From Bacteroidota bacterium (GTDB lineage Bacteria; Bacteroidota; Ignavibacteria; Ignavibacteriales; Ignavibacteriaceae), in contig JAKALM010000010.1 of assembly GCA_021824145.1 (NCBI GenBank), positions 52,940-104,012 on the forward strand: a stretch of 51,073 nucleotides of DNA, written 5' to 3'. The translations under genes and the position numbers were made by a program. How positions within the stretch are numbered: position 1 is the stretch's first letter; each line of letters begins with the position of its first letter. Below are positions 32,170 through 49,175 of the stretch, in pieces. The notes beneath the pieces were generated by a model. The model was not told where the DNA came from. It saw only the letters and a program-made list of their open reading frames with translations, and ran no database searches.

Positions 32170-33375
32170 ATGAATAACAACTCTTTAAGTGAAAAAGACA
32201 AAAAGAATGGAATAATATTAATTGCTACTCTTAGAGTTTCTAGAAGCATAGCTGCCGGGATGATTAATGTTGCTTTCCCATATTACATATTAACAACTTT
32301 ACATTATGGCGCTTTAGTAATCGGTTCAATATATGTGGCAGCTACAATTGCAACTGCGTTGCTTGGTTTTTTATTTGGAATTACAACTGATGTTTGGGGT
32401 AAGCGAGAAACTTTAGTGATAACTGGATTATTGATGCCATTAAGCGCTTTCATGGTTTATATTTCCTCAAGCTTATGGGTTATTTTTCCAGCTGCCATGA
32501 TTGGAGGATTTTCTGCAACGGGCTCTCTTGCAGGCGGCGGTATCGGAGGCGCTATGCAGCCAATACAAAACGCAGTAATTGCAAATCTAACTACCAATGA
32601 AAATAGGACAAAATATTTTTCAAGATTTACATTTTTATCTGGCGCTACTGCGGCTATTGGTGCGCTAATGGTAAAACTTTTCAATGTAGAGGATGTATTT
32701 CTTGCTGCTACCTTAATTTCACTTGCTGGTATTCCAGGATTATGGTTTATAAAAGTTACAAATTCAAATGGCAATATCAGAAAACTAAAAACGAAAACAA
32801 CCATTGGTAAGTTTACTTTAACCGGCATGCTCAACGGATTTTCACAAGGATTGACTGTCCCATTTCTCATACCATTTTTTGTATTAGTTTATCACCTTCC
32901 CAAATCTCAGGTTTCAGAATACGCATTTATCAGCGGAATGTTAGGTTCATTTTCAATTTTAGCTGCACCGCTTTTAGAACGATTGTTCGGTTTTGTAAAA
33001 AGCATTGTTGTTACTAGAGCTATTGGTGCAATACTATTTGTAATATTCCCGATTATAAGATACCTACCGGTTTCAGTTTTAATTTATATTATTAGTCCTT
33101 CTTTAAGAATAGCTGCATTGCCAATACAACAATCTGAATTAACAAAGCGTGTTGATGATGAAGAGATGGGCAGAGCGCTAGGAATAAACCAAGTTGCAAG
33201 ATTAGCAGCTTCATCTTCCGGCACAGGATTAAGCGGATATTTAATGGAAAATGCTTTATTTGAACTCCCCTTCTTTATATACGGAGGAATAATGGCGGTA
33301 AATCTTTTCCTATATATTAAATTCTTTGGAGAAAAGAAAAATCAAATTGCTTCATCCACACAAAAAATAGGTTAA
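32170..33375 (+). CDS. MFS transporter
   Basis: Major facilitator superfamily permease of 401 residues, with about 12 hydrophobic segments in two halves joined by a basic loop (NSNGNIRKLKTKTTIGKFTL, about 200-219). The motif A loop between TM2 and TM3 is GITTDVWGKRETLVITGLL, matching the G-x-x-x-D-x-x-G-R-K/R consensus. SGATAAIGALMVKLF and FFIYGGIMAVNLFLYIKFF are membrane segments. The GSLAGGGIGGAMQPIQNAVIA stretch (TM4 region) is Gly-rich. No substrate can be read; single-component exporters or sugar-acid carriers share this layout. It stands alone, 92 bp before the hemerythrin gene on the same strand, and may be co-transcribed with it. Confidence 0.9.
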   Translation: MNNNSLSEKDKKNGIILIATLRVSRSIAAGMINVAFPYYILTTLHYGALVIGSIYVAATIATALLGFLFGITTDVWGKRETLVITGLLMPLSAFMVYISSSLWVIFPAAMIGGFSATGSLAGGGIGGAMQPIQNAVIANLTTNENRTKYFSRFTFLSGATAAIGALMVKLFNVEDVFLAATLISLAGIPGLWFIKVTNSNGNIRKLKTKTTIGKFTLTGMLNGFSQGLTVPFLIPFFVLVYHLPKSQVSEYAFISGMLGSFSILAAPLLERLFGFVKSIVVTRAIGAILFVIFPIIRYLPVSVLIYIISPSLRIAALPIQQSELTKRVDDEEMGRALGINQVARLAASSSGTGLSGYLMENALFELPFFIYGGIMAVNLFLYIKFFGEKKNQIASSTQKIG

Positions 33376-33467
33376 GATATTCTAGCAAATTCTTCACTTT
33401 TACATACTGCACTTTAATGCTGCAAATTATTTACGATTATATAATTGAAATTTTGGAGTTGAATAAA

Positions 33468-33878
33468 ATGCCGATAAGCTGGTTGAACGTTTATAATACT
33501 GGAATTGCAAAAATAGACGAACAGCATAAAAAACTTGTGCAGATGATTAATGATTTAGAATCAGCTCAAGGAAAAGAAAATGAAGCACAAATAATCAGAG
33601 ATATTTTTTATCGTTTAGTTGATTACACACATTATCATTTTACTCAAGAAGAGATGTTAATGGGAGAAGCTGAATATCCCAAAACTTCAACACACAAACA
33701 GCAGCATAAAATATTAGTTGAAGAAATTGTGAAGATGCTTGAAGCGCTAAAAACCGGCAAGCTAGTAGTGGGGGAAAAATTAATGACAATGTTAAAAGAC
33801 TGGTTAATAACTCACATTCTTGGTTATGATAAGGAGTTTGGTATTTATTACAAAACTTCTACAAAAGTATCTAATTGA
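33468..33878 (+). CDS. Bacteriohemerythrin
   Basis: Non-heme diiron, O2-binding four-helix protein. From the ATG at 33468 (136 residues; GGAG ten bases upstream) the diiron ligands all fall in place: H20 (DEQHKKLV), H57 and E61 (HFTQEE), H76 and H80 (HKQQH), H116 and D121 (HILGYD). W5 and the GIAKIDEQH start are typical of single-domain bacteriohemerythrins. A longer frame back to 33417 would add a non-homologous leader, so I chose the internal ATG. It may buffer or sense oxygen, which suits an organism with oxygen-sensitive glycyl radical enzymes and many chemoreceptors nearby; that link is inference. Confidence 0.93.
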   Translation: MPISWLNVYNTGIAKIDEQHKKLVQMINDLESAQGKENEAQIIRDIFYRLVDYTHYHFTQEEMLMGEAEYPKTSTHKQQHKILVEEIVKMLEALKTGKLVVGEKLMTMLKDWLITHILGYDKEFGIYYKTSTKVSN

Positions 33879-33954
33879 ACAATGTTATAATCTAGATTCA
33901 AAGTTTTTATTTTTAATAAAATTGCAATTAAGAAAAATTACAATTCGTATAACT

Positions 33955-34428
33955 TCATTTTGAATTATAATCTATTTTTGAATAATAATTGCTGATAATG
34001 ATGGAAACAGGAAGTCCGATACAGAACATTAAATACAAAACACCAAGTACATCATGAAGCAAGCTGAAATTTATACGAGGCACCTTGCTTAATTTTAGAA
34101 CTACTTTATTCATTATTATCCATATAAATATTCCGTAACCAAAACCGGAAATTATTTTATTAAATTTTAAGAATTTGAGATGAGGATATAAAAAGAAGTA
34201 AATTACCGTCCATGATAAAGCTATAAAATAATGAAAAACTAAACCTGCCAATGCCATAGATAATCCACCGTTAAAAGCACTACTGCCAAAAACACCACTT
34301 GCAATATATTGAAACAAACCCAGCAAGCTGCTTTTACTAGTAATTAGAAAATTAATTATAGCAGAAGAAATATCAAGAGTTCCAGCAATCAGCCAAGCAG
34401 CTAAAATAGTTTTAACTGGTTTATTCAT
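33955..34428 (-). CDS. Small integral membrane protein, about 4 TM
   Basis: A 157-residue protein with about four hydrophobic segments: TILAAWLIAGTLDISSAIIN, the MALAGLVFHYFIALSWTVIY pair, GFGYGIFIWIIMNKVVL, and VLGVLYLMFCIGLPVSIIIS. SSAIINFLITSKSS and LVFHYFIAL give a pattern seen in unassigned inner-membrane proteins of the DUF1440/YagU-like kind, but I am not certain. No catalytic motif is visible. It faces the hemerythrin gene and is followed upstream by the sensory operon's terminator region. Function unknown. Confidence 0.75.
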   Translation of the reverse strand: MNKPVKTILAAWLIAGTLDISSAIINFLITSKSSLLGLFQYIASGVFGSSAFNGGLSMALAGLVFHYFIALSWTVIYFFLYPHLKFLKFNKIISGFGYGIFIWIIMNKVVLKLSKVPRINFSLLHDVLGVLYLMFCIGLPVSIIISNYYSKIDYNSK

Positions 34429-34619
34429 GATTTTATACCATAGATAAAAAATGATTGAATATTGACTGCGACATATTCAGTAATTTTTAATTATTTCGAA
34501 TTTATAAGATTACATTAATAACTTTTTCTTAATTGAATTGTGATTTAGCATAGGGGGAAAAAATTTGAATGATAAATAAACAACTTACATTCTGGCCATA
34601 AATATTTACTAAAGGAAGG

Positions 34620-34648
34620 AGCCATCCCAAATATTATTTGAGATGGCT
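34620..34648 (-). terminator. Likely terminator of the chemoreceptor operon
   Basis: AGCCATCCCAAAT (34620-34632) and ATTTGAGATGGCT (34636-34648) pair with one G-U, nine bases past the stop codon of the last chemoreceptor gene. On the minus strand the stem is followed by CCTTCCTTT; on the plus strand by TTTTAACTTTT, so it could work either way. Confidence 0.5.
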
Positions 34649-34656
34649 TTTAACTT

Positions 34657-36879
34657 TTATGAATGGACTATAACTCCGTTTGAACGGACTGATAAATTAC
34701 TTTTGTGTGCCGATAAATTTTTGAAGTTGTTATTTCCCTTTCCATTATTTTCAATTTTAAACATAGCAATCAACTCTTGAAGATTAAGCGTTAAATTATT
34801 TAAATCTTCTGCAGCGCGTGCAATTTGCTGAACTCCTGCTGTACTTTGTTGTGTAACGCTGCTAATAGCTTCAATATTTTTACTGATTTGTTCTGCAGTT
34901 GCACTTTGCTGTTCACTTGCAGCAGCAACTTGAGTTGACATATCTACTACCTCCTCTGCGCTGTGTATTATTGACTTTAACGACTGTCCAGCTTTATCTG
35001 CTAATTCCTTGCCTTTTTCAACTTCTGCTGTACCTTGCTTCATAGAAACTACAGCTTCTTCTGTATCCCTTTGAATCTGCTTAATCATCGATGCTATTTC
35101 TTTTGTTGCTTTTGTAGTACGCTCTGCAAGTTTTCTTACCTCATCTGCAACTACGGCAAAGCCTCTTCCCTGCTCACCAGCCCGCGCTGCTTCAATTGCT
35201 GCATTAAGTGCTAGCAGATTCGTTTGATCTGCAATGTCATCAATTACCTGAATTATCTCGCCAATCTGCTCACTATTTTTACCTAATTGATGAACTGTAT
35301 CTGCTGATTTTTTTACTACTTCTGAAATTCTGTTCATTCCTTCAATCGTTTCAGATACAACTTTTCCTCCTTCTTTTGCAATACTTCCAGAGTTCTTTGC
35401 TGCATCGGAAGCTGAAGCTGAATTTTTTGTTGTTTCATAAATAGTTTTTGTCATTTCTTCAACAGCACCGGCAACTTCTGTAGTTTGAGAACTTTGTTCT
35501 TGAGCTCCAGCAGCCATTTCTTCGGTGCTTGATGAAATTTGATTTGATGCACTTGCTGTTGCTTGTACTGCTTCGGTAACTTTCTCTATAATGTTTCGTA
35601 AATTATAAACAGACTGGTTAAATCCTTGGAAGAGTTTTCCAATTTCATCATAATCTTTTTCTGGAGTAACAGAAACTGTTAAGTCTCCATCGGCAAATTT
35701 ATCCATTGCCTGCAAAATATTTTGAGTAGACCTGGTTAAATAATTTTGAGCTTCCTTAATATCTTTAATATCAGTAATAGCTTCTAAAGCTCCAATTATT
35801 TTCCCTTCTTTATTTTTAACAGGAGCGCCTGTATATAAAATTGGAAGTTCAGCACCATTTGGATGAGCAATTGTTTCATCTGTAAAAGTTGAATCATTCT
35901 TCATTGCTTTATTCAATGCACAATTTTCTGTTTTACAATGGCCGGTTTTAAATTGATCGTAACACTTCTGTCCGATTAATTGTTTTTGCTCTTTGCCTAC
36001 AACCTTTGCGCCAAACTTATTCATATATTGAACATTAAATTCTTTATCGATAATCATAACCGGATTTGGCAAATTATCAAGATATTGAATTTGGAGTGCA
36101 ATTTTTTCAATCATATTTTGGAACGATTTTGTTAATTCGCCAATTTCATCATTACTATTATTAAGAATACTAATATTAGTTTCGCCAGCGGCAAATTTAT
36201 TAGTTGCGTTTAATAATTCTGTTACTGGTTTGCCTATTACTTTTGAGATAAAATAACCTAAACCAACTGCAATCAGCATTGCAGAAATCATTAAGATTAT
36301 CATAAAATTTACAGATGCATTTGCTGCATCAGTATTGTTATTGGATCTAGTTTTTGCTCTTCTATCCAATACCTCATCTAACTTAGATAATGCGTTCTGC
36401 GTATTAGTTCTTGCAGTTTCTAGTGTGCCATGCCAAAATGCTACTGCTTCATCTACCTGCTTATTTTTTGCAAACTGAATTAATTTCTTAAAATCTGCCT
36501 GAAAATTTTCATAAGAATCTTTTACATTATTCAAGGCTTGCTTTGACTCATCGGGAAGATTTATTTTTTCAAAATCAGAAAGCACATTAGTAATATCTTT
36601 TTCACGTTCTGAAATACTATTTACTGCATCTTCACTATCCGATGAAGTTTTTGCTATTACAAGCTCCAAGCCATTGTTTCTCATTCTCTGAAAATTAGTT
36701 GATAACTTACTGCTTAAAGCCAGCGGATATGTATTGGTTTCATAGAGAATTGTATCACTTGAATTAGCCGATTTAAGACTAGAGATGCCCTCGTAACCTA
36801 CTAATCCAGCAATTAAAGCTCCAAGTATAAAACTTAATAAAAGCTTCATACCTATTTTAAGATTATAGAACCAGTTCAT
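34657..36879 (-). CDS. Methyl-accepting chemotaxis protein with PAS
   Basis: Transmembrane chemoreceptor of 740 residues. TM1 about 12-30; periplasmic four-helix-bundle sensor about 31-190; TM2 about 192-214; HAMP 213-265; PAS about 268-375 ([20 protein letters not shown]); a second HAMP-like stretch ([20 protein letters not shown]); then the signalling hairpin to the C-terminus, whose tip contains [20 protein letters not shown]. The PAS carries a Cys set C-x8-C-x4-C ([18 protein letters not shown]), like the kinase at 8314. The signalling half is nearly identical to that of the neighbouring receptor 36975-39077. There is no NWETF-like C-terminal pentapeptide for CheR docking. It is last in an operon with CheW. 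Confidence 0.93.
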
Positions 36880-36940
36880 TTTATTACCTTATTTTTTATA
36901 TAAGAAATATTTCCAATTAAAATTGGAAAATTTATATTTT

Positions 36941-36966
36941 TACCGGCTGAATCTTTTCAGCCGGTA
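36941..36966. other. Perfect hairpin between the two chemoreceptor genes
   Basis: TACCGGCTGA (36941-36950) and TCAGCCGGTA (36957-36966) form a 10-bp stem with a 6-base loop, 8 bp after the stop of the upstream receptor. A second, weaker palindrome (TCCAATTAAAATTGGA, about 36911-36926) follows. With no T-run it may stop only part of transcription, or protect or cleave the transcript. Confidence 0.6.
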
Positions 36967-36974
36967 TATTACTA

Positions 36975-39077
36975 TCATTTATTTATTAAAGATCCATTAC
37001 TCCGAACGTATGTAGTACCTTTGGTTTTATTTGTAGTAGTAACTTTCATATCATAATTATCGGAAGAACTTATTTTAAATTTAGATATTAAGTTTTCCAA
37101 ATTACTTGTTAGTTGATTTAGATCTTCAGAAGCGCGTGCAATCTGCTGAACACCTGCTGCACTTTGCTGTGTAACGCTGCTTATTGCTTCTATATTTTTA
37201 CTGATTTGTTCTGCTGTCGCACTCTGCTGTTCACTGGCGGCTGCTACCTGGGTTGACATATCTACTACTTCTTCTGCACTTTTTATTATTTGTTTTAGCG
37301 ACTGACCTGCTTTATCTGCCAACTCCTTGCCTTTTTCTACCTCTACAGTTCCTTGCTTCATCGAAACTACTGCTTCTTCTGTATCTTTCTGAATCTGCTT
37401 TATCATTGATGCTATTTCTTTTGTTGCCTTTGTTGTTCGCTCTGCCAATTTCCTTACTTCATCTGCTACTACTGCAAAACCTCTTCCCTGCTCTCCAGCT
37501 CGCGCTGCTTCTATTGCAGCATTCAATGCCAGAAGATTTGTTTGATCTGCAATGTCATCTATTACTTGAATTATCTCTCCAATCTGTTCACTGTTTTTGC
37601 CTAATTGATGAACTGTGTCTGCCGACTTTTTAACCACTTCTGATATTCTGTTCATTCCTTGAATTGTTTCATCAACTACTTTTCCGCCATCTTTTGCAAT
37701 GCTTCCAGAATTCTTTGCTGCGTCTGATGCTGATGCTGAATTCTTTGTTGTTTCTATAATTGTTTTTGTCATTTCCTCTACTGCGCCGGCTACTTCCGTT
37801 GTTTGTGTGCTTTGTTCCTGAGCGCCTGCTGCCATCTCTTCTGAACTTGATGATATTTGTGTTGATGCGCTTGCTGTTGCCTGCACAGCTTCTGTAACTT
37901 CGATAAGTACAGAGCCTATATTATCGCCTAAATTATTAATGCTATCCTTAATAATTTTATGATCGCCTTTATAATTACCCTTTACCCGGGCTGTAAAATC
38001 TCCGTTTGCCATAACAGATAATACATCACTGCCTTCTTTTACTGGTTCAATAACGGCATCAAGTACATCATTAATACCTTTAACAAGAGACTTATAATAA
38101 CCTTCAAATTTAGACGCATTTGCTCTGTTGCTTAACTTACCTTCTTTTGAATCATCAATTAATTTTATTGTTTCTTCATTAAGAATATTTAATATTTTTC
38201 TAACTTCTTCATAAGCGTCAATCCCACCTTGGGCTTTTGTTAGCATTTGATCAAAAACTTTAGCCATTTCACCAATTTCATCTTTTAAATCCATGTTTAA
38301 GTGTTTTGTACCTTTTTCTACTTTTGCATTCAAATCACCTGAAGCCATTAAGCTTAAGCCATTACCAAGATTTGTCAAACAAACTTTTTCCAGATGTGCC
38401 ATTCTTTCTTTAACTGCATTTACTGGCTTAACAATACTTTTTGTAATAATGAAAGCAAAGCCCAAAATAATTAAAAAAGTTAAAGCGCTTATTATCAATA
38501 AAAGGTTTTTAGAATTTGAATTTGATTGATCAGCCAATGCACTTGCGTTATCAACTTTTTTATTCTGTAAATCAATTAATGAATTTATTCCGTCTAAATA
38601 CATTGACTCTGCATTATGATATTCTCCTTGTAAAATAGATAAAGCCGTTGCTTTATCTCCAGATTTAAGTGCATTTAAAGCATTTTGCAATTGTGCTTTA
38701 TAGTTCCCTCTTTCTTTTTCTACTTTTGCTAATGCAGATTTCCCTTCTACTGATATAATAGTTCTATTCAGAGAATCATAATTTGAAGCTGCGCTATCAA
38801 CCAACGTATTTAATTTAGAAATTAAAGTTTGGAGCTGTTGCTGGTTGTTAGTCAGGACCATATCCCTTAAACACTTAGCTTCTTCATTAACTACATTTAT
38901 AACATTATTCGCCCAAATAGTTTTTGGAAATACGTCATTATTTATATAATTAATATCTTCATCTAGCTTTGATGAATTTGATATTGAAAGCAACACAATA
39001 ACAATTAGAGCTGTCAAACTGATGCCAAATCCGATGGCAAGCCGAAGGCTTATTTTTAAGTTATTGAACCATTTCAT
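36975..39077 (-). CDS. Methyl-accepting chemotaxis protein
   Basis: Transmembrane chemoreceptor of 700 residues. TM1 about 12-31; a periplasmic four-helix-bundle sensor about 35-185 ([20 protein letters not shown] at its start); TM2 about 193-212 ([20 protein letters not shown]); HAMP about 213-290, followed by a second HAMP-like segment with [20 protein letters not shown]; and a signalling hairpin with the conserved [20 protein letters not shown] tip. No PAS, unlike its neighbour. From about residue 395 on the two receptors agree almost residue for residue, while codon third positions differ, so the similarity is old but kept or exchanged. It is preceded 42 bp upstream by cheW. Confidence 0.93.
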
Positions 39078-39119
39078 TAGATTACTCCTTTTTATAAATA
39101 ATAATTGAATATTATATTT

Positions 39120-39608
39120 TTAATTGACCATTTCTTCTATTAATTCTTTTTCCTCTTCGACAAGTAATTTGTTTAAGTCCAAAAGTATTAACAATCTATC
39201 TTCTAACTTTCCTATAGCTGTTATATACTTTGAATTTATTCCAGCTACTATTTCAGGCGGGGCTTCGGTTATGTTCTTCGGTATCCTCAAGACTTCACTT
39301 ACTGCATCAACTAAAAATCCAACTGTTTTTCCTTCAACATCAACGACAACAATTCTTGTATCTTTATCATAATCTCTTTTAGGCAATCCTAATTTTACTC
39401 TTAAGTCAATTACAGGCAGCACTCTACCTCGAAGATTAATAATACCTTCAACAAACTCAGGAGAGTTAGGAACCTTTGTAATTGTAATCATGCGATTTAT
39501 TTCTTGGACATTGAGAATATCAACTCCAAATTCTTCGCTTCCAATTTTAAAGCTGACTAATTGTAAAAGCTCAACAGAATCTTTAACAATATCATTACTA
39601 TTATTCAT
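39120..39608 (-). CDS. cheW: Chemotaxis coupling protein CheW
   Basis: Single CheW domain of 162 residues, which links chemoreceptors to the CheA kinase. It shows the usual LQLVSFKIGSEEFGVDILNVQEI start, ITKVPNSPEFVEGIINLRGR (receptor/CheA contact face), VLPVIDLRVKLGLP, RIVVVDVEGKTVGFLVDAVSEVLRIP and the closing ITAIGKLEDRLLILLDLNKLL. The operon holds two receptors downstream and a receiver-kinase upstream, but no cheA, cheR, cheB, cheD or cheY was found anywhere in the window. Gaps to neighbours are 12 bp (upstream) and 42 bp (downstream). Confidence 0.95.
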   Translation of the reverse strand: MNNSNDIVKDSVELLQLVSFKIGSEEFGVDILNVQEINRMITITKVPNSPEFVEGIINLRGRVLPVIDLRVKLGLPKRDYDKDTRIVVVDVEGKTVGFLVDAVSEVLRIPKNITEAPPEIVAGINSKYITAIGKLEDRLLILLDLNKLLVEEEKELIEEMVN

Positions 39609-39620
39609 TATTTACTCCTA

Positions 39621-40745
39621 TTAATTTTTAAAGTTGTTTGCGCCAAAAAATATTTGGTCTTTACTTAAAACAAGGGGAATACCGATTTCAACTGTGCTGC
39701 TAGAATTATAAATGCTTTCAATTGTTATATATCCGTTTGATAGGTCAACAATTTTTTTAACTATTGCCAAACCCATTCCTAAACCCTCTTCTGTATTATC
39801 TTCTTTTCCAAATTGGTTAAAAGTATTGATTTTATTTAAATCAAAATTTATCGTACCAATTCCATTGTCAATTATCTTTGTTACATAATTATCTTCATTG
39901 GATTTTCCTATTACTAAAATCTGACTTCCTTTTTTTGAATACTTCAGCGAATTTTCAATTAATTCATCCAGAACTGTATCGAAATGCCATTCAGCAATTT
40001 TAATTTTACGTTTTTCAAACTGAATATTTAAATCCGCTTTTCTTCCAAACTCTTCTGCCTTTTGCAATAACTTTCCGTAAACTAAATCCGGATCAACTTC
40101 ATATTCATTGCTGGTTTTATTAACGCCAATATTATTATTTTGATTTTCGCGGAGTAATTCTGAGTAAGTTAAAAATTTCTCAATCCTTCTGTACAACCGT
40201 TTGCCAGAACGATTAATTCTTAAAGCCATTTCATTTATTTCTTCTTTGGAAAGATTATCAATATCATCCTGCATAATACCGGACAGCCCTAGAATACTTA
40301 CTAGCGGGGTTCTTAATTCGTGGGGCACTCTTTTAATTAAAATATTTTTAAACTCTTTTACTTCTGAAAGGTATCTTTCATTTTTTCTTAGTCTTGAATT
40401 AATTGCGTTTAGAACATCAGTAATTTTAAAAGGTTTAAGAATATAGTCGTCAGCCCCTAATACCATGCCTTGCCTTACATCAGTATTTTCAGTTTTTGCT
40501 GTAAGAAAAATGAAAGGAATTATTGAAGTCTTAGAATTCTCCTGAAGTTTCTTTAATAATTCAAGTCCATCCATCTTAGGCATTCTTATATCGCTTAGAA
40601 TTAGATCTGGCTCATAATGAATTGCAATTTCATAACCTTCTTTTCCATCTTCGGCGCTTAGGATATCAAATCCTTCAGCTTCTAATAAGTCTTCAAGATT
40701 TCTTCTAACATCTAATTCATCTTCTACTACTAATATTTTTTTCAT
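39621..40745 (-). CDS. Response regulator-histidine kinase fusion (REC-HisKA-HATPase)
   Basis: A 374-residue cytoplasmic protein with a receiver first and a kinase after it. The receiver (1-120) has acceptor D52 (SDIRMP), T82 (LTAK) and K104 (LKPF). The kinase has H142 in RVPHELRTPLVS and an ATPase domain with DELIENSLKYSKK (N box), DNGIGTI (G1) and EGLGMGLAIVKKI (G2). There is no CheA-type Hpt, P3 or P5 domain, so it cannot contact CheW in the standard way. It sits between a STAS-like gene (23 bp upstream) and cheW (12 bp downstream). It may take phosphoryl groups from another kinase and relay them, or take over an output step of the receptor array; both are inference. Confidence 0.93.
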   Translation of the reverse strand: MKKILVVEDELDVRRNLEDLLEAEGFDILSAEDGKEGYEIAIHYEPDLILSDIRMPKMDGLELLKKLQENSKTSIIPFIFLTAKTENTDVRQGMVLGADDYILKPFKITDVLNAINSRLRKNERYLSEVKEFKNILIKRVPHELRTPLVSILGLSGIMQDDIDNLSKEEINEMALRINRSGKRLYRRIEKFLTYSELLRENQNNNIGVNKTSNEYEVDPDLVYGKLLQKAEEFGRKADLNIQFEKRKIKIAEWHFDTVLDELIENSLKYSKKGSQILVIGKSNEDNYVTKIIDNGIGTINFDLNKINTFNQFGKEDNTEEGLGMGLAIVKKIVDLSNGYITIESIYNSSSTVEIGIPLVLSKDQIFFGANNFKN

Positions 40746-40768
40746 TATCTACACCTAATTAAATTTTC

Positions 40769-41149
40769 TTACTTATTTTTCGTATCCATTTCATCTAGAA
40801 TTATATTTGCAGCGTCTACAGTTTCCGCTTCCATTGCGACATAACCAACTGAACGTGAACTGCGCTGCCATTGATTTGCAGTGACATAATTATTTTTACT
40901 TACAATACGAACAGCATTACCAAGTCCTAATTCTTTTACTTGCTTTTGGGTTTCGACAAGCATTTGTCTTACCTCTTCCGTAGCGGGCTGACAATTTAGT
41001 ATTTCAGATACAACACTAAATCCTGGTTTAAGCTTTTTTAATTTTGATAACAAATCATCGGACCATGCTTTTAGTTCTGCAGCATCCACTTTTCCTTCGA
41101 GCATAAGATGCATTCGGTTTTTAGCAAAATTTAGTTGGTTCTTGTACAT
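40769..41149 (-). CDS. STAS/SpoIIAA-like domain protein
   Basis: A 126-residue protein with no signal peptide or membrane segment. The beta-alpha order and the phrases KNQLNFAKNRMHLMLEGKVD, LKKLKPGFSVVSEILNCQPA and the helix VRQMLVETQKQVKELGLGNAVRIVSKN, with AMEAETVDAANIILDEMD at the end, match small STAS/SEC14-like proteins in which PGF-x-V-x-[ST]-[DE] is a hallmark. No known acceptor Ser in a DSSG motif can be placed, so it may bind rather than be phosphorylated. It is first in the receptor operon, 23 bp before the receiver-kinase. Confidence 0.65.
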   Translation of the reverse strand: MYKNQLNFAKNRMHLMLEGKVDAAELKAWSDDLLSKLKKLKPGFSVVSEILNCQPATEEVRQMLVETQKQVKELGLGNAVRIVSKNNYVTANQWQRSSRSVGYVAMEAETVDAANIILDEMDTKNK

Positions 41150-41466
41150 CTATTTTTTACCTATAATTTTGTTAGAATTAAATGTGAATAATTATCAAAT
41201 AACGTTTTATTTTAATCCCAATGTATATTCGGAGATTTTAATTAGATTTTATAGATTAATGTTGTAAGCGGGAATTTTGAGGAGTAAGCGGGATAAATGT
41301 GGAGTTAATTCGCACACAAATTAGTATTTACTTGAGTCCCTTTCGCCGAATAAATTCTTTGGAGCGTTGGAATTCTGGAATAATGGAGTAAGTCTGTCAA
41401 TTCCATTTTTCCAAAGACTGTATAACGTAACTACTAATGGCAATAATAAACTCTTCATAATTTTAA
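41150..41466. other. Spacer upstream of the chemoreceptor operon
   Basis: It likely holds the operon promoter and the end of the LytTR transcript. Two GTAAGCGGGA direct repeats (about 41267 and 41286) 19 bases apart could be regulatory or chance. The GAATTCTGGAATAATGGAG stretch is low-complexity. No gene seen. Confidence 0.4.
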
Positions 41467-42234
41467 TTATTCGATTTTGTTTTTGCGAATAATTGAAGAA
41501 AATCTTTTGCTAGAAATAAATGGTTCAGAAATATCTTTAAGATAAATTTGAAAAGTAGAGTGAAACCACTTTTCAATGCCAACAATATATTCTGAGTTTA
41601 TAATTGTTGACCGATGAATTCTAAGAAAATTTTTATCAGGCAAAACACTTTCCCATTCAGAAATTGATTTTCTAATTAAATAATCTTTTTTATCCTTCAT
41701 ATATAAAAGAGTATATTGGTTGTCGGAATTTATATATACAATATCCTTTATCGCTATAATTTGAGGCTTATTTTTGTATTGGATAAAAATTTTATCATCA
41801 TAATCATACTTGGTTTTATTAATATTTTCGTCGTTGATTACAGCTTCAGATTTTAATAATTCAATTCTTTTCAATCTAGTTTTAATTGCCTGTAATAAAT
41901 CATCTATTCTAAATGGCTTTAGAATATAATCATCAGCACCAAGCTGCATACCTTTCCTAATATCTTCCTTTTCCACCTTAGCCGTAAGGAAAATAAAAGG
42001 AATTGCCTGAGTTAATTTGTTGCAAGATAATTCATCAATAACACCGTAACCATCAATACCAGGCATAGCGATATCGCAAAGAATCAAATCGGGTTTTTCA
42101 TCTTGTGCTTTTTTAAGACCGGTAATTCCATCGCTGGCAGTAATAACGATATAACCCTCTTCCACTAAAATTGTATTTAAATTGAGCCGAACGTCAGCCT
42201 CATCTTCAATTACAAGAATTTTTATTTTGTCCAA
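41467..42234 (-). CDS. LytTR-family response regulator
   Basis: Response regulator of 255 residues. The receiver (1-125) has acceptor D54 (CDIAMPG), the LTAK Thr and KPF Lys (ADDYILKPF). The C-terminal LytTR DNA-binding domain (about 155-250) shows KPQIIAIKDIVYINSDNQYT, YLIRKSISEWESVLPDKNFL, RIHRSTIINSEYIVGIEKW and the final ISSKRFSSIIRKN. LytTR proteins bind direct repeats in promoters as dimers. Its likely kinase is the 1514-residue protein encoded 103 bp upstream on the same strand. Its receiver resembles that of the receiver-kinase at 39621 in sequence around LTAKxExxDxRxGMxLGADD. Confidence 0.93.
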   Translation of the reverse strand: MDKIKILVIEDEADVRLNLNTILVEEGYIVITASDGITGLKKAQDEKPDLILCDIAMPGIDGYGVIDELSCNKLTQAIPFIFLTAKVEKEDIRKGMQLGADDYILKPFRIDDLLQAIKTRLKRIELLKSEAVINDENINKTKYDYDDKIFIQYKNKPQIIAIKDIVYINSDNQYTLLYMKDKKDYLIRKSISEWESVLPDKNFLRIHRSTIINSEYIVGIEKWFHSTFQIYLKDISEPFISSKRFSSIIRKNKIE

Positions 42235-42337
42235 ATGTCCCTCAAATATGTTAATGTCACTCTTAGTTCAACTGATGTACCTTCTCACCGTGTAATGGGA
42301 AGTCGAGTTGTTATTTGCAAAAGATTAAAAATTATTT

Positions 42338-45300
42338 TTACAATTTAAGTTTTACAGTGAATACTGATCCTTTACCTAACTTTGAGCTAACACTTATTTC
42401 GCCGTTATGAAGTTCTACAGATTGTTTGACGATAGATAAACCCAGCCCAGTGCCTGATATCTCGCTTGAGTTTGAGCATCTGAAAAAAGGTTCGAATAAA
42501 TGCTGTTTATCGTTTTCAGGAATTCCGATGCCTTCGTCACTCACTTCAAAAATCAAATAATTTCCTTCTATAAATATATCAAATTTAATTTTACCATTTG
42601 GTTTGGAATATTTAAAAGCATTTGACAACAGATTAGTTAAAATGAACTTCAATAATTTACTGTCAACTTTAAAATCTTTATCCTTGGGCTTATATTTGAA
42701 TAATAAATCGCATCCATCCTTATATGCCGATTTAATATCGCTTATTATTTCATTACAAAAATCATAAAGGTTTAACAACTCCGGTTCAAATTTAATTTTT
42801 CCGCTGTCTACACGACTTATAGTTAGTACCTCATCCAGCAATTTTGTAACATAATCAACTGAGACTTTTATCCTTTCTATATGCTCATTAACTTTTTCCC
42901 GTCCCCATTTTTCACCATACCTCTGAATTAATTCCGCTGAAGACAAAACTGAAGTAAGTGGAGTTCTAAATTCATGCGATGTGGTTGAAATAAATCTTGT
43001 TTTAAGCTCATTAAGATCTTTTTCTTTTTCAAGCGACTCCCTTAACATCATTTCAAGCTCTTTTTGCCTTTGAAGCTGTTCAGTCAAATTCAAATTTACT
43101 TTATCTAGTTCTTTAGTTCTTACATCAACCAGCCGTTCCAGATGATTTCTATATTCTTTAAGCTCATTTTCGGCTTTTACTTTTTCAGTAATATCCTCTT
43201 TAACGGCAATATAATTTGTTACTATTCCAATTTCATTTTTAATCGGAGTAATTATAGCGGATTCCCAATACAACTCTCCGTTTTTCTTTTTATTATGAAA
43301 TAGACCTGCCCAAGTCTTTCCGGATGTTAGAATATCCCACATCTCTTTATATTTTTCCGGAGTTGTTTCACCAGATTTTAATACTCTGGGATTTTGATTT
43401 AATGCTTCCTCTTTCGTGTAGCCAGTTACCTCAGAAAAATAAGGATTTACATATTCAATATTTGCTTCGGCATTTGTAATTACGATTGATAATCTGCTTT
43501 GTTCTACTGCGGTAGAAAGCTTATTCAAATTTTCTATAAGTTTAGCTCTTTCTGTAATATCTCTGGCAGCAGCATATAAACTTTTTGCGTCCGGTGAAGG
43601 GCTTGCTACCCAATCCAGTAATTTATATTCTCCATTTTTAGTGCGGTATCTATTAGTAAAACTAATGGTTGGTTTTCCAGATAATTGTTTTTCAACTTCT
43701 TTAAAAGTCAGTTCTTTATCATCTGGATGAATAAAATTAGCAAATGGTTTATTTAACATTTCTTCTTTTTTATAACCAAGTGAAATTTCCCAGGCGCTGT
43801 TTATTTCTTTAAATCTACCGTCTACAGCAATGCATACCATATCCGGCACAAGGTCAAAAAATCTTTTCAACTGTTCTTCAGCTAATCTTCTGTCGGTTAT
43901 ATCATGTATTATGGAATGCAGATACGTCTTACCGGAAATTTTAACAGTACTGGAATACACTTCAATATCTCTAACCGAACCATCTTTTAGTAACGATTTA
44001 AGCTGGCTGTAATTCTGCTTCCTTTCCTTAAAAAGCTGTAGATTTTTATCTATGATTCCAGTTAATGAATTTGTAAGATCATGAATTCTCATGGTTTTTA
44101 ATTCAGGAATTGTCCAGCCGTAATATTTTTCTGCTGCATTATTTGCATCAATGATGTTTCCAGTCTCCGGCTCCACAATCATCTTAACTGCGCTATGTTC
44201 CTGGAAAATGCTGCGGAATTTTTTCTCGCTCTCCTGAAGTTCTAACAGAGCTTCTTTTCTCTCAGTTATATCAATCATTATAGTAAGAAAATATTTAATG
44301 CCTCCGCTTTCGATAATATCGCCAAAAAATAGTCCGCTGATTATCTTCCCGCTTTTAGTTCTTACATCAAGCTCCACGTTACTTATTTTGCCCGATATTT
44401 CTAATTCTTTTGCTATCTGTCTTTGTTTATTCTGCTCGACAAATAAGAATAAGTCACTTGATTTTTTGCCTATAACTTCTTCACGCGTATAACCAAGCTC
44501 AGTTAAAAATGCTGAATTAACCTCCGTTATAATTCCATTAGGAATTGTACTTAATACCATTAAAGAAGGATTAGCTTCAAAAAGCTTATTAAATTTACTT
44601 TCGCTTTCCCTCAATGCTTGTTCAGCTTCCTTCATTTCTGTAATATCGGAAATCATTGCAATGTTTGCAGTAAACTTATTTTGCTCATCAAATAATGCTG
44701 AAGCTGAAACCAATCCGAAAAATATTTTTCCATCTTTCCGTAAAAATCTTCTTTCGAAAACACCACTTTTCCCTTTTTCTCTTTCCTTAATTTGAATTTT
44801 ATAATTATCAATATCTTCTTTAAAGATTAATTTCTCTAAAGTCATTCCAATTAATTCCGATTGACTGTATCCAAACATTTCTGAGATTTTATTGTTTGCG
44901 AGTATAATTTTGGTATTAGGATCCGCAATCATTATCCCTTCATTTGATGTTTCGACAATTTTACGGAATCTTTCTTCGCTAATTTTTAATGCCGATTCTG
45001 TATTTTTCCTTTCGTCAATTTCAAGTGACAAGTCTTCAATTATATTTAATGTAGCTTCCCTTGCTCTTATTAAATCCAAATTCAGCTGCTCAAGCTCTTT
45101 GCTTTTAGCCTTTGCTTCTTCTTCTTTTTCTTTTAAACTTTTCTGGTATAGCTTTGAATCGGTAACATCAATAAAAGATATTAAAACTTTATTAAATGAA
45201 TTATAACTATCAGGCAATATTGTTGCCTTAATCTGCATTAAAGCTTTTTGTCCGTTTATTTTAATTATCGGCAGTTCTCCTTCAAACTCTGTACTGCCGT

Positions 45301-46882
45301 TAAAAAAAGCAACCATCTCATCTTTAAATACATCAAAAGAATCTGTATCGAAATAATCGGTAAGGCTTAGATATAATTGCTCTTTTGAAGCTGCACCCAC
45401 AACTTCAATAGCTGCTTTATTAAATAGTTTTATCGATATGCTTTTAGAAAGTCGAAACAGCATTTTCGGATTTTTATCAAGATAATTTCTTAATTCTGTA
45501 ACGCCTTCGGTTTTTAATGCTTCAAAAATATTTTTAACTAGAGAAAAATCTCCTTCCCAAATAGGAATAGGCGAATTATGGAAAAGGGTTTCAAAATGTT
45601 TTTGAACTTCAGCCAATGAAGTTTCGGATTTTACTCTTCTTACAATGTCCCATGATAAATCCCCAAGTTGAGTCATTATATCTATATCAATTTCATCATA
45701 TTCAGTTTCTTTATTACCGACGCCGAAAATTGCAACAACTTTATTGTTTTTAATTATAGGAACAACCAATTCCCTAAATATAGGCGCATGCCCTTCAGGC
45801 ATTCCCTTTTTATTCGTCAAGCTCATATAATCGTTGTGAATAACCGGCTGGCGTTTATAAAAACATTCCACCCAAACACCGGCTTGGCTAATGTTATAGT
45901 GCGAGCCTTTGCCTTCCGCGCTGCACATATTTTTTTTTGTATTGGTTGACCAATTTTGCAGCAGCAAAGTATCCTGATTATCATCGACAAAATGATAAAA
46001 TCCTATTTTGCTTTCAGTCAGTCCTTCCCCTTCATCTAATATTTTCTGTAAAATATCATCAAGCGAGCCATTATGAGAAATTTCATCTATTCTTAATTTT
46101 GCTTCCAACAGCAGTTTAGATCTTTTTTCTTTTGTTATATCGGCTATATTGCCATATACCTTTATAACTTTACCATCAACAGTTATGGCTTTGCCTACAG
46201 TTCGAATCCATAAATTCTTCCCTTTAAAGTTGGTAAATTCACATTCTAAATCATACTCTTCACCTTTGGTAACACAATTATCTAAAGCCTGCAAAACTTT
46301 AGTTCGGTCATCCGGATGATAACATTCTAAGCTCTTGGTAATAAGCATAGTAGAATTATCACCTGCTTCTTCTTCATTTAATCCATGGATACGATATACT
46401 TCCTTTGTCCACCATAATTTATTATTTATTAAATCATATTCCCATCCCCCGATTTTAGAAACTCTTTCAGTTTCGTCTAATATAATTTTAAAACGCTGGG
46501 CTTTTTCTTGAGTTTCAATAATATCAGTAACATCCTGCCCAGTAAGAACTATGCCTTTGATGTCGGGATTATTTAATAAATTACTCCTATGAAAAATAAT
46601 CTGCCGTGGCTTACCATCTTTATCAATTATTCTTAAATATCCTTGCTGAACCTTTTCAGGATTAGCCAATAATTTTTCAAAATCTACTTTTACTTTATCA
46701 TTATCCTCAGGATAGACAAGGTTAAATATACACGCACCCTTTAACTCTTCGCTTTCATAACCAAGAACTTGTTTAAATGAAGGGCTGGAACTTTTAATTA
46801 TTCCTTCCGGAGTAATAACGGCAATTAAATCGGAAATATTTTCGATTAAAGAATGGAAGAATTTTTCATTTTGTGTATTCAT
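42338..46882 (-). CDS. Large cytoplasmic multi-PAS/GAF histidine kinase
   Basis: A 1514-residue kinase without membrane segments. N- to C-terminus: PAS1 (about 8-118); PAS2, of the GGWEYDLINNKLWW kind (about 135-250); GAF (about 262-420, ending FGVGNKETEYDEIDIDIMTQ); an atypical PAS with SPIPIWEGDFS (about 430-590); four more PAS each introduced by ESE-like helices (about 640-1040); a PAS with YKEEM-type loop; and a final PAS, EYVNPYFSEVTGYTKEEALN (about 1100-1220). A coiled coil then leads to HisKA (phospho-His 1303 in TTSHEFRTPLTS) and HATPase (SNAFKYSKP, DEGIGIP, GTGLGLSIVKQ). That is about eight PAS plus one GAF. No receiver is attached. Likely partner of the LytTR regulator 103 bp downstream. 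Confidence 0.94.
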   Translation of the reverse strand: MNTQNEKFFHSLIENISDLIAVITPEGIIKSSSPSFKQVLGYESEELKGACIFNLVYPEDNDKVKVDFEKLLANPEKVQQGYLRIIDKDGKPRQIIFHRSNLLNNPDIKGIVLTGQDVTDIIETQEKAQRFKIILDETERVSKIGGWEYDLINNKLWWTKEVYRIHGLNEEEAGDNSTMLITKSLECYHPDDRTKVLQALDNCVTKGEEYDLECEFTNFKGKNLWIRTVGKAITVDGKVIKVYGNIADITKEKRSKLLLEAKLRIDEISHNGSLDDILQKILDEGEGLTESKIGFYHFVDDNQDTLLLQNWSTNTKKNMCSAEGKGSHYNISQAGVWVECFYKRQPVIHNDYMSLTNKKGMPEGHAPIFRELVVPIIKNNKVVAIFGVGNKETEYDEIDIDIMTQLGDLSWDIVRRVKSETSLAEVQKHFETLFHNSPIPIWEGDFSLVKNIFEALKTEGVTELRNYLDKNPKMLFRLSKSISIKLFNKAAIEVVGAASKEQLYLSLTDYFDTDSFDVFKDEMVAFFNGSTEFEGELPIIKINGQKALMQIKATILPDSYNSFNKVLISFIDVTDSKLYQKSLKEKEEEAKAKSKELEQLNLDLIRAREATLNIIEDLSLEIDERKNTESALKISEERFRKIVETSNEGIMIADPNTKIILANNKISEMFGYSQSELIGMTLEKLIFKEDIDNYKIQIKEREKGKSGVFERRFLRKDGKIFFGLVSASALFDEQNKFTANIAMISDITEMKEAEQALRESESKFNKLFEANPSLMVLSTIPNGIITEVNSAFLTELGYTREEVIGKKSSDLFLFVEQNKQRQIAKELEISGKISNVELDVRTKSGKIISGLFFGDIIESGGIKYFLTIMIDITERKEALLELQESEKKFRSIFQEHSAVKMIVEPETGNIIDANNAAEKYYGWTIPELKTMRIHDLTNSLTGIIDKNLQLFKERKQNYSQLKSLLKDGSVRDIEVYSSTVKISGKTYLHSIIHDITDRRLAEEQLKRFFDLVPDMVCIAVDGRFKEINSAWEISLGYKKEEMLNKPFANFIHPDDKELTFKEVEKQLSGKPTISFTNRYRTKNGEYKLLDWVASPSPDAKSLYAAARDITERAKLIENLNKLSTAVEQSRLSIVITNAEANIEYVNPYFSEVTGYTKEEALNQNPRVLKSGETTPEKYKEMWDILTSGKTWAGLFHNKKKNGELYWESAIITPIKNEIGIVTNYIAVKEDITEKVKAENELKEYRNHLERLVDVRTKELDKVNLNLTEQLQRQKELEMMLRESLEKEKDLNELKTRFISTTSHEFRTPLTSVLSSAELIQRYGEKWGREKVNEHIERIKVSVDYVTKLLDEVLTISRVDSGKIKFEPELLNLYDFCNEIISDIKSAYKDGCDLLFKYKPKDKDFKVDSKLLKFILTNLLSNAFKYSKPNGKIKFDIFIEGNYLIFEVSDEGIGIPENDKQHLFEPFFRCSNSSEISGTGLGLSIVKQSVELHNGEISVSSKLGKGSVFTVKLKL

Positions 46883-47405
46883 GGTAAAACTTCATTAATT
46901 AATATTTTCTTTTAATTACAGCAATATGTTTATATATTTTAATATATAACCCGTTGTACGAAACTAAATGATATAATCGGAAACAGTTAAACATAAATTT
47001 AGTCATATCATTAACACCTCGATAAATAGGCTGTGTTAGAATAAGATAATGATTTATAAATATTTACGAAATTTAATATTACAATTCCGGTTAATAGCAA
47101 ATATTATCGAACTCTTACCTGCCTAGCGGCAAGGCTGGCAGAGTTCCAGTTCTTTTGGTTTTCTTTTTGCTACAAATATATAGCTCCTCTGGAGCTAAAA
47201 AAGAATGAAGATAACTCCGTAGGAGTTAAATATTTGTAGATTAAATATTCTTCCTAAATGCCCGAACCCCTTAGGGGTTCAACAAAAAATGAATATTTAT
47301 TTTTTGACCTTTAATATTCACACAGCCTCTTAATCGAGGTGTTAATAGTATAATCATAAAAACGTAGTCGTTTCAAAGGCTTACAATAAAACTTTGAACA
47401 ACATG
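46883..47405. other. Intergenic region made mostly of a composite repeat
   Basis: Nearly all of it is the nested repeat at 46953-47402. The last 70 bases before 46953 include the promoter area of the PAS kinase. No gene was seen. Confidence 0.6.
46953..47402. repeat. Composite nested palindromic element, copy E
   Basis: Outer ends GTTGTACGAAACTAAAT (left) and CTTACAATAAAACTTTGAAC (right) resemble those of copies A-D, including GTCGTTTCAAAGGC like their CGTTTCAACGGC. Inside lies a 26-bp inverted pair, ATTAACACCTCGATAAATAG... (47010-47035) and its complement (47321-47346), 24 of 26 matching. Three short hairpins follow in the middle: TAGCTCCTCTGGAGCTA (47181-47197), AACTCCGTAGGAGTT (47213-47227) and GAACCCCTTAGGGGTTC (about 47264-47280). 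CCTGCCTAGCGGCAAGGCTG (47119-47138) recurs at 5781. No transposase is encoded. Confidence 0.75.
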
Positions 47406-49175
47406 TTAATCATTAAGGTACTTTTGCTCTAAACCAAGTTTTTTATGAAGCGAATTGATTTCTTTCTTTAATTCAATCATTTTTTCTTCTCTTCCAACCA
47501 TCAAGCGGTTGAACTGATTGATTTCATTTATCTGCTGAAGCAGTTTATTCTCATAATTTTTTCGCAGGGTAATATTATTTGCAAATACCAGTATCTGCTC
47601 AAGACTGTCCGAATAAGTAGCGCTAATTTCTAAATCAAGCTTCTTGCCGTTTTTACACTTGTGGCGAGTTTCAAATTTTTCATATCCTATTTGCTTTATT
47701 TTTAATATGTGACTTGCAACTTCTTCGTTAGTTTCAATTGTATTTAAGTCATTTATTTTCATCTTTAGCAATTCTTCCCGGCTAAATCCTGTCATATTAC
47801 AATAAGCATTATTTACGTCAATAATATTTCCCAAATTGTCTAATTTTAAAAATCCTTCCATAGATGTTGATGTTAAAAGCTTGAATTGCTCTGCATTTAA
47901 TTTTAATTGCTTCTCTGCATTTCTAATTTCTGTAATATCATTTAATATTGTAAGCAGATGATTTCCATTTTGAGTATATAACATTCTTCCTGAAATTAGA
48001 CAATGTTTAATTACACCGTTTCTATCCTTTCTCTTAATTTCAATATTGTTAAAAAAGTTATTATTCATTAAATCATCGATTAAAATTTTCCTATCGTTCT
48101 CATCATACCATAAACCCAGTTCTAAAGTAGTTTTGCCTATCATTTCTTCTTTTTTGTAACCGAAATATTTTTCATAAGCTTCATTAACCTCTACCAACTT
48201 GGTAGTTATTATGTCCATAATTGAAATTGGGATAGGAGAGATATTATATATTGTTCTAAAACGTTCTTCACTTTCTATTAAAGCTTTCTGCGCCATTTTT
48301 TGTTCTGTTACATCATAAAATGAATTAAAAATTGCATCTTCATTATTAAAATTTATAATAATTGAGCTGACAAAAATTGTTTTAATCTTATTATCAAATG
48401 TTTTTATTTCTCGCTCAAAGCCTTCTACAATTTTTTTACTTTTTAACAATGAAAGAAATTCAACTCTTTTTTCCGGATTAGCATAAAAATCTATTATATA
48501 GTAATCTTCTATTGACTTGCCTAAAGCAGGTTGCCCAACAAATTCCATAGCTTTCTTATTTACATATAAAAAATTACCCCGCTCAAGACTTATAATTACC
48601 ACAGGAAATGGAGAGTTTTCTAATAACAATCGATATCTTTCTTCACTCTTCTTTAATTCAAATTCAGCCTTTTTGCGTTCAGTTATATCCTCCACAATAC
48701 CATCATAATAAAGGATTTTCCCTTCAGAATTTTTGACAACTTTTGCATTTTCTCGAACATAAAGCACTGTTCCGTCGCTTCTAGTCCATGCCGATTCTAA
48801 ACCTTTAATTACTCCTTCACTTTCTATTCTTTCAATAAAAATTCTTCTTTCATAAGAAGGTTCAAATCCAGTTTCTTCTAAATTTCTTTTAGCTAGCTCT
48901 TCAAAAGAAGAATAATTCAACATTTTTAATAAGGCAGAATTTGCTAGAAGAATTCTTCCATCTTTGGATGTCCTATAAATTCCAAGTAATGAGCTTTCAT
49001 AAATTTCCCGGTACCTTTTTTCACTCTGTTGTAATTTTTCTTCATTCCTTTTATGTTCAGTAATATCCCATATAATACTTTGATAGAAATTTTGACCTTC
49101 AACCTCAATAAATTGTACGCTTACTTCAACCGGGAAAGTACTCTTATTTTTTCTTATATGAATACTTTCAAACAA
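47406..49175 (-). CDS. PAS-repeat sensor, 3' part of a frameshifted gene
   Basis: The 589 residues begin in the middle of a PAS domain and continue with four whole ones: EEKLQQSEKRYREIYESSLL, ELKKSEERYRLLLENSPFP, ALIESEERFRTIYNISPIP and QLKLNAEQFKLLTSTSMEGF each start a unit of about 120 residues. There is no kinase or other output domain; the protein ends in a coiled-coil tail, FNRLMVGREEKMIELKKEIN then SLHKKLGLEQKY. The missing first half of PAS1 is at the end of the ORF at 49226-50422, in another frame, so this is one gene broken by a single-base shift (see junction). The tail is shared with the paralogue at 50659. It may signal by binding a separate kinase. Confidence 0.9.
   Translation of the reverse strand: MFESIHIRKNKSTFPVEVSVQFIEVEGQNFYQSIIWDITEHKRNEEKLQQSEKRYREIYESSLLGIYRTSKDGRILLANSALLKMLNYSSFEELAKRNLEETGFEPSYERRIFIERIESEGVIKGLESAWTRSDGTVLYVRENAKVVKNSEGKILYYDGIVEDITERKKAEFELKKSEERYRLLLENSPFPVVIISLERGNFLYVNKKAMEFVGQPALGKSIEDYYIIDFYANPEKRVEFLSLLKSKKIVEGFEREIKTFDNKIKTIFVSSIIINFNNEDAIFNSFYDVTEQKMAQKALIESEERFRTIYNISPIPISIMDIITTKLVEVNEAYEKYFGYKKEEMIGKTTLELGLWYDENDRKILIDDLMNNNFFNNIEIKRKDRNGVIKHCLISGRMLYTQNGNHLLTILNDITEIRNAEKQLKLNAEQFKLLTSTSMEGFLKLDNLGNIIDVNNAYCNMTGFSREELLKMKINDLNTIETNEEVASHILKIKQIGYEKFETRHKCKNGKKLDLEISATYSDSLEQILVFANNITLRKNYENKLLQQINEINQFNRLMVGREEKMIELKKEINSLHKKLGLEQKYLND

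Follow-up and report, generated by a model that had tools for sequence, protein, structure and literature searches.

How does a bacterium make use of a CheW adaptor and two chemoreceptors whose operon encodes no CheA? The question is raised by a 51,073-nucleotide stretch of DNA (hereafter the window) from a Bacteroidota bacterium of the Ignavibacteriales (Ignavibacteriaceae; GenBank assembly GCA_021824145.1, contig JAKALM010000010.1, positions 52,940 to 104,012), in which genes for a STAS-like protein, a receiver-containing histidine kinase (REC-HK), CheW and two methyl-accepting chemotaxis proteins (MCPs) follow one another. An earlier reading of this sequence (hereafter the original prediction) proposed that the receptors either recruit a CheA from elsewhere or have an alternative output through REC-HK and the STAS-like protein, which would be unusual. 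The explanation that we favour, and consider moderately probable, is that these genes form an accessory receptor and adaptor cassette which joins the array of the genome's single CheA, and whose expression is set by a two-component system of its own. Array membership is suggested by sequence similarity, and the regulatory step is predicted from the DNA.

Gene content of the cassette

Analysis of open reading frames (ORFs) in the window found all five genes on the minus strand in the order first described (STAS-like, REC-HK, cheW, mcp, mcp). That description was incomplete, however, as it missed an upstream REC-LytTR response regulator and a PAS/GAF histidine kinase of 1514 amino acids (aa). 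The features are as follows, in window coordinates.

42338 to 46882, minus strand: histidine kinase with multiple PAS and GAF domains, HisKA and HATPase, 1514 aa (ORF and Pfam)
41467 to 42234, minus strand: REC-LytTR response regulator, 255 aa (Pfam: Response_reg 1.1e-28, LytTR 8.7e-23)
41264 to 41291, minus strand: predicted LytTR-type operator, CCGCTTAC-N12-CCGCTTAC, a 10-bp exact direct repeat of period 20
40769 to 41149, minus strand: STAS-like protein, 126 aa, fold putative (ORF)
39621 to 40745, minus strand: REC-HisKA-HATPase hybrid kinase (REC-HK), 374 aa (Pfam)
39120 to 39608, minus strand: CheW adaptor, 162 aa (Pfam)
36975 to 39077, minus strand: MCP, 700 aa, with 4HB (4HB_MCP_1), HAMP, HAMP_2 and MCP signalling (MCPsignal) domains (Pfam)
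34657 to 36879, minus strand: MCP, 740 aa, with 4HB (4HB_MCP_1), HAMP, PAS and MCP signalling (MCPsignal) domains (Pfam)
34620 to 34648, minus strand: terminator-like hairpin of 13 pairs at the end of the unit, the longest stem among the sites listed

The gaps between the five genes, from STAS-like to the second mcp, are 23, 12, 42 and 95 nt. The STAS-like gene lies 317 nt behind REC-LytTR on the same strand, with the PAS/GAF kinase further upstream. A protein combining REC and LytTR is encoded beside a histidine kinase, as in LytTR-type regulator systems, and this kinase is probably both the first gene of the cassette and its sensor. Terminator-like sites number eight in the 8.7-kb region against a shuffle mean of 4.0, and Rfam gave nothing at gathering score in window positions 33000-47500. 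As originally stated, no CheA (P3, HATPase, CheW-like P5) is found by Pfam among the operon proteins of the window, and REC-HK is made up of REC, HisKA and HATPase domains without a P5; nor does it give a Pfam match to Hpt.

The single CheA of the genome

The genome (3.48 Mb, 37 contigs, 95% complete) contains one CheA P3 match, which belongs to a complete CheA on contig 27 with Hpt, P3, HATPase and CheW-like P5 domains. CheW-domain matches number five: the window CheW, the contig-27 CheW, the P5 of the contig-27 CheA and two divergent CheWs on contig 4. The che cluster on contig 27 runs CheW, TonB_C protein, MCP, hemerythrin, HEAT-repeat protein, CheR, two stand-alone receivers (CheY, named by place), a CheZ-like protein, CheA and CheB, and is followed by flagellar genes (rod, FliF, FliG, export ATPase). 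All three genes that the original prediction proposed to search for (cheA, cheR and cheB) are therefore in one complete cluster beside flagellar genes, which supports the first of its alternatives, the recruitment of a CheA from elsewhere.

Over 161 residues, the window and cluster CheWs share 66% identity and 84% similarity. In a quick tree of 52 CheWs (131-229 aa only), one starred set of 28 rows holds 11 cassette, 8 che-cluster and 9 other sequences, four of the eight che-cluster rows being a long branch from divergent che clusters. Cassette CheWs cluster more than under shuffled labels, yet they do not form one clade, and many forks are weak. By its identity and by this mixed tree, the window CheW is of the same kind as the CheW encoded with CheA. 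The alignment of the cluster receptor with both window receptors is free of gaps across the signalling hairpin, and their signalling domains are of the same length. Chemoreceptors of one signalling-domain length class can share an array, and the window and cluster receptors may do so because this alignment places them in one class. The “missing” CheA is ordinary, since the genome's only CheA is on contig 27, the window CheW resembles the CheW of that cluster and the receptors align without gaps. A CheW/MCP operon lacking cheA should not be taken for a CheA-independent pathway until the rest of the genome has been searched.

Hemerythrin genes (Pfam) adjoin both the cassette (window 33417-33878) and the canonical che cluster (L006:12051-12446). 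In che clusters of the order, cheW and mcp repeatedly have a small TonB_C-domain gene between or beside them, identified by Pfam (L006:9375-9758, L041:3717-4121, L045:4660-5058) and by profile or tblastn matches (L062, L063, L065, L073, L226). Many receptors end, by eye, in a tail like VRxNGxLV (both window MCPs, L044, L045, L049, L064, L069, L095), a possible tether for adaptation enzymes. Around the divergent stand-alone CheWs of contig 4 (L008:8456-8950, L008:18827-19336) are what look like exopolysaccharide, NtrC-type regulator and efflux genes, and no CheA was seen in the 28 kb covered there.

A predicted LytTR operator

What might control the expression of the cassette? In the gap behind REC-LytTR, 114 nt ahead of the ATG of the STAS-like gene, stand two copies of CCGCTTAC, both perfect, at 41291-41284 and 41271-41264 (ten identical bases). 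No other 10-mer in the window recurs exactly at lag 20, and the CCGCTTAC pair has no second perfect match in its own genome. In two papers, LytTR sites are described as direct or inverse repeats of 9-11 nt with spacers of 11-13 nt, for example ACCACTTAC-12-ACCACTTAC, with ACCACTTAC and ACCGCTTAT among the halves listed (PMC4847170, PMC6193735); the LytTR passages of a third amount to a general remark and a reference (PMC8396549). The window repeat equals a 9-nt repeat with an 11-nt spacer and fits these dimensions, and we predict that 41291-41264 is a LytTR-type operator.

Similar repeats are enriched in relatives. Among 41 gaps behind REC-LytTR genes, the 8-mer CCGCTTAC occurs in 21 (at most one mismatch) against 1.8 expected, and direct-repeat pairs of period 20 number 13 against 0.06 expected from shuffles, with three more of period 21. 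A period-20 pair lies within 450 nt downstream of 11 of 49 REC-LytTR genes compared with 11 of 1559 other genes (Fisher P 4e-12; identical proteins counted once, genes with less than 80 nt of downstream sequence left out). A test that uses no consensus found an 8-of-9 self-match at lag 20 in 18 of 45 gaps; no other lag between 12 and 44 gave more than 5.

Recurrence of the cassette

A search of 164 genomes of the order, scoring 12 candidates per genome, found REC-HK in 105 at E at most 1e-40. The loci compared are the best 60 matches of a longer list plus seven earlier ones (67 in all); a 68th REC-HK gene, in L268, entered as the neighbour of a ranked one, so that 68 genes from 49 genomes were scored. 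Neighbours were labelled with profiles built on Ignavibacteria sequences, as were the genes in the 450-nt count and the CheW tree. Counts of loci “with room” set aside those with less than 1 kb of upstream or 1.5 kb of downstream sequence, and G085 (L254), whose genes run MCP, CheW, REC-HK, was scored as lacking the cassette.

REC-LytTR is encoded within 1.5 kb upstream of REC-HK in 39 of 61 loci with room. CheW or MCP follows within 3 kb in 27 of 60 (CheW 16, MCP 22), or 28 of 68 overall, from 19 genomes and three families of the order. Four of the 68 genes have a CheA within 8 kb. The order two-component gene, REC-LytTR, REC-HK, CheW, MCP is seen in L066 (G017, of the same genus as the window), L213 (G145), L226, L266 and, twice, L268. 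The original prediction had made its case depend on there being no complete che operon elsewhere that serves these receptors and on conservation of the five-gene order. A complete che operon does exist, and the exact order STAS-like, REC-HK, cheW, mcp, mcp was not found outside the window among the 67 REC-HK loci; the related order of REC-LytTR, REC-HK, CheW and/or MCP nevertheless recurs, and the neighbourhood is for this reason not accidental.

A model for cassette function

The results establish gene content and order, the presence of CheA on another contig, the likeness of CheW and receptor type to those of the CheA cluster, the repeat, and the enrichment of such repeats in relatives. From these we infer phosphotransfer, DNA binding, activation or repression, array incorporation and the parts played by REC-HK and the STAS-like protein. 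The PAS/GAF kinase (42338-46882) would phosphorylate REC-LytTR, which would bind the direct repeat at 41291-41264 and control, as activator or repressor, transcription of the STAS-like, REC-HK, cheW and both mcp genes. The cassette CheW and receptors would be built into the array of the contig-27 CheA, and their signal would leave through that CheA and its CheY and CheB to the flagella. The most likely place of REC-HK is in the two-component branch, as a second kinase or a phosphate sink with a receiver type common with REC-LytTR. The locus would then offer a testable case, in a little-studied order, in which a two-component system encoded alongside the receptors, and dedicated to them, may adjust the composition of a chemosensory array.

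Several observations weigh against this model. A period-20 pair near the CCGCTTAC consensus is absent from 38 of the 49 REC-LytTR genes, and the gaps used to count the 8-mer are those it was picked from, although the lag test is independent of it. The pair failed as a finder of regulon members: in its own genome, at up to three mismatches, it gave 10 sites against 10 in the control, one of them perfect, and in the 13 genomes of the genus, at up to two mismatches, 14 sites where the reversed control gave 9; of the 14, only the window's own is on a contig with a found REC-HK cassette. Matches to sigma-70-like promoters in the region number 39, with 39.8 expected from shuffles. At 33 of the 60 REC-HK loci with room, the 3 kb downstream contain neither CheW nor MCP, and the regulatory half therefore also occurs alone. 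A P3 match is present in 19 of 19 genomes that have CheW or MCP downstream of REC-HK, but also in 26 of 30 REC-HK genomes that do not (Fisher P 0.15), and this contrast therefore proves nothing by itself.

Could the cassette CheW and receptors just share the contig-27 CheA, with the neighbouring two-component genes functionally unlinked to them? All of the evidence on the single CheA fits this proposal, REC-HK and REC-LytTR stand without CheW or MCP at many loci, and other two-component genes, too, have CheW and MCP genes beside them in the genus. It is nonetheless unlikely, as CheW or MCP follows REC-HK at 28 of 68 loci where an estimate from gene numbers puts chance below 2%. Moreover, among 80 REC-HK relatives across phyla (cyanobacteria, Chloroflexi and Bacteroidota included), some with short flanks and all labelled with the Ignavibacteria-built profiles, CheW, MCP or CheA flanks only L100, from Stygiobacter. 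NCBI places Stygiobacter sp. RIFOXYC2_FULL_38_25 in the Ignavibacteriales (Melioribacteraceae).

REC-HK and the STAS-like protein

The window protein has no STAS-model match in Pfam or NCBIfam, and comparing its family's profile with that of a Pfam-confirmed STAS protein brought no support. A profile search of the PDB ranked Ttg2E and two “anti-sigma factor antagonist” chains highest (E 0.15-0.18 only), all three of which we take to be STAS proteins, and a distant relative, L041, matches PF11964 (SpoIIAA-like) at E 0.009, below the model's cut-off. A single-sequence structure model is poor (pLDDT 47) and shows strand-helix-strand-helix. A STAS fold for the 126-aa protein is plausible on these weak family matches.

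Close relatives (E below 1e-50) are found in 6 of the 13 genus genomes, at seven places, and nowhere else among the 164. Four of these loci (L036-L039) have no REC-HK, CheW or MCP next door, and a close STAS-like gene is present at three of 67 REC-HK loci: the window; G018, where it stands in the same place beside REC-HK without CheW or MCP; and G013, in the order REC-HK, STAS-like, MCP. Three of the weaker relatives (E 5e-12 to 5e-4), L041, L044 and L045, lie beside receptors. These three belong to a 130-aa family, distant kin of the STAS-like protein, that directly adjoins receptors.

Might the array instead have a second output, in which CheA or receptor-CheW acts on REC-HK, together with the STAS-like protein, and so reaches gene expression through REC-LytTR? 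REC-HK recurrently adjoins CheW and MCP, and its residues H142, E143, N265, G321, G323 and G325, presumably for phospho-acceptance and ATP binding, are invariant in 7 of 7 aligned relatives. Relatives of the STAS-like protein lie beside MCPs in L035, L041, L044 and L045, and in Sinorhizobium CheA is bound by CheS, a protein consisting of STAS only, according to the review PMC12654446. In a quick tree of 41 receiver domains, on the other hand, 14 REC-HK and 14 REC-LytTR receivers group with two free receivers (support 84) and four CheYs stand apart (support 97), although support is modest and several outside rows are on long branches. By this grouping, REC-HK would more probably draw phosphate from the source that serves REC-LytTR, in the simplest case the PAS/GAF kinase, than from CheA. 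As REC-HK also lacks a P5 or Hpt match, and the STAS-like gene is rare at REC-HK loci and often without chemosensory neighbours, we regard a second output as improbable. The output through REC-HK and the STAS-like protein originally proposed is likewise improbable. Similarly doubtful is a closed loop, in which CheA or receptor-CheW would control REC-HK and so feed a LytTR circuit that in turn determines how much of those receptors is made; if true, such a loop between sensing and expression would recur across the Ignavibacteriales.

Comparison with known systems

Agrobacterium fabrum C58 (PMC12654446) has one CheA, with two CheW and 19 further MCP genes outside its che cluster. The window is alike in having CheW and receptors away from the sole cheA, and unlike in that these genes sit in a recurrent kinase/REC-LytTR/REC-HK cassette with a predicted operator. 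YpdA/YpdB, HdrR and BrsR (PMC4847170, PMC6193735) similarly comprise a LytTR regulator and paired repeats about two helical turns apart before the controlled genes, whereas the sensor of the cassette would be a PAS/GAF HisKA kinase and its predicted target a second kinase and chemoreceptor genes. CheS, a STAS-only partner acting on CheA in alpha-proteobacteria (PMC12654446), is likewise a small protein of a chemosensory operon. The window protein differs in that its STAS fold is putative, it adjoins REC-HK and not cheA, and it often lacks chemosensory neighbours. No cassette of CheW, MCP, LytTR and REC-HK is described in the titles or abstract openings that searches of open-licence PubMed Central papers listed.

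CheA and CheW across the order

Among the 164 genomes (domain-match cut-off E up to 0.001), CheA P3 is found in 103, CheW in 129 and MCP in 125. A strong MCP match, of E 1e-45 or lower, is found in 104 genomes, 96 of them with P3; of the other 60 genomes, 7 have P3. Seven of the eight strong-MCP genomes without a P3 match, G112 excepted, were searched again with whole CheA. This recovered CheA pieces in G016, G065 and G153 and a 36%-identical CheA-type protein in G103, and found no CheA in G014, G094 and G138, which are 79-89% complete. A CheA-independent complex in which CheW couples the receptors to REC-HK in CheA's place, for which the rarity of cheA near the cassette is the sole argument, is highly improbable, because this genome has a CheA, relatives without a P3 match mostly carry CheA or its pieces or are incomplete, and REC-HK gives no match to a CheW-like P5.

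Long CheW frames (302-412 aa) were set aside, as they carry a long N-terminal extension and do not adjoin REC-HK. In L091-L094 (G162, G160, G159, G115) an N-terminally extended CheW lies beside a gene read as an ExeA-like ATPase, and in L094 it also lies beside STAS-domain proteins, one of them Pfam-confirmed.

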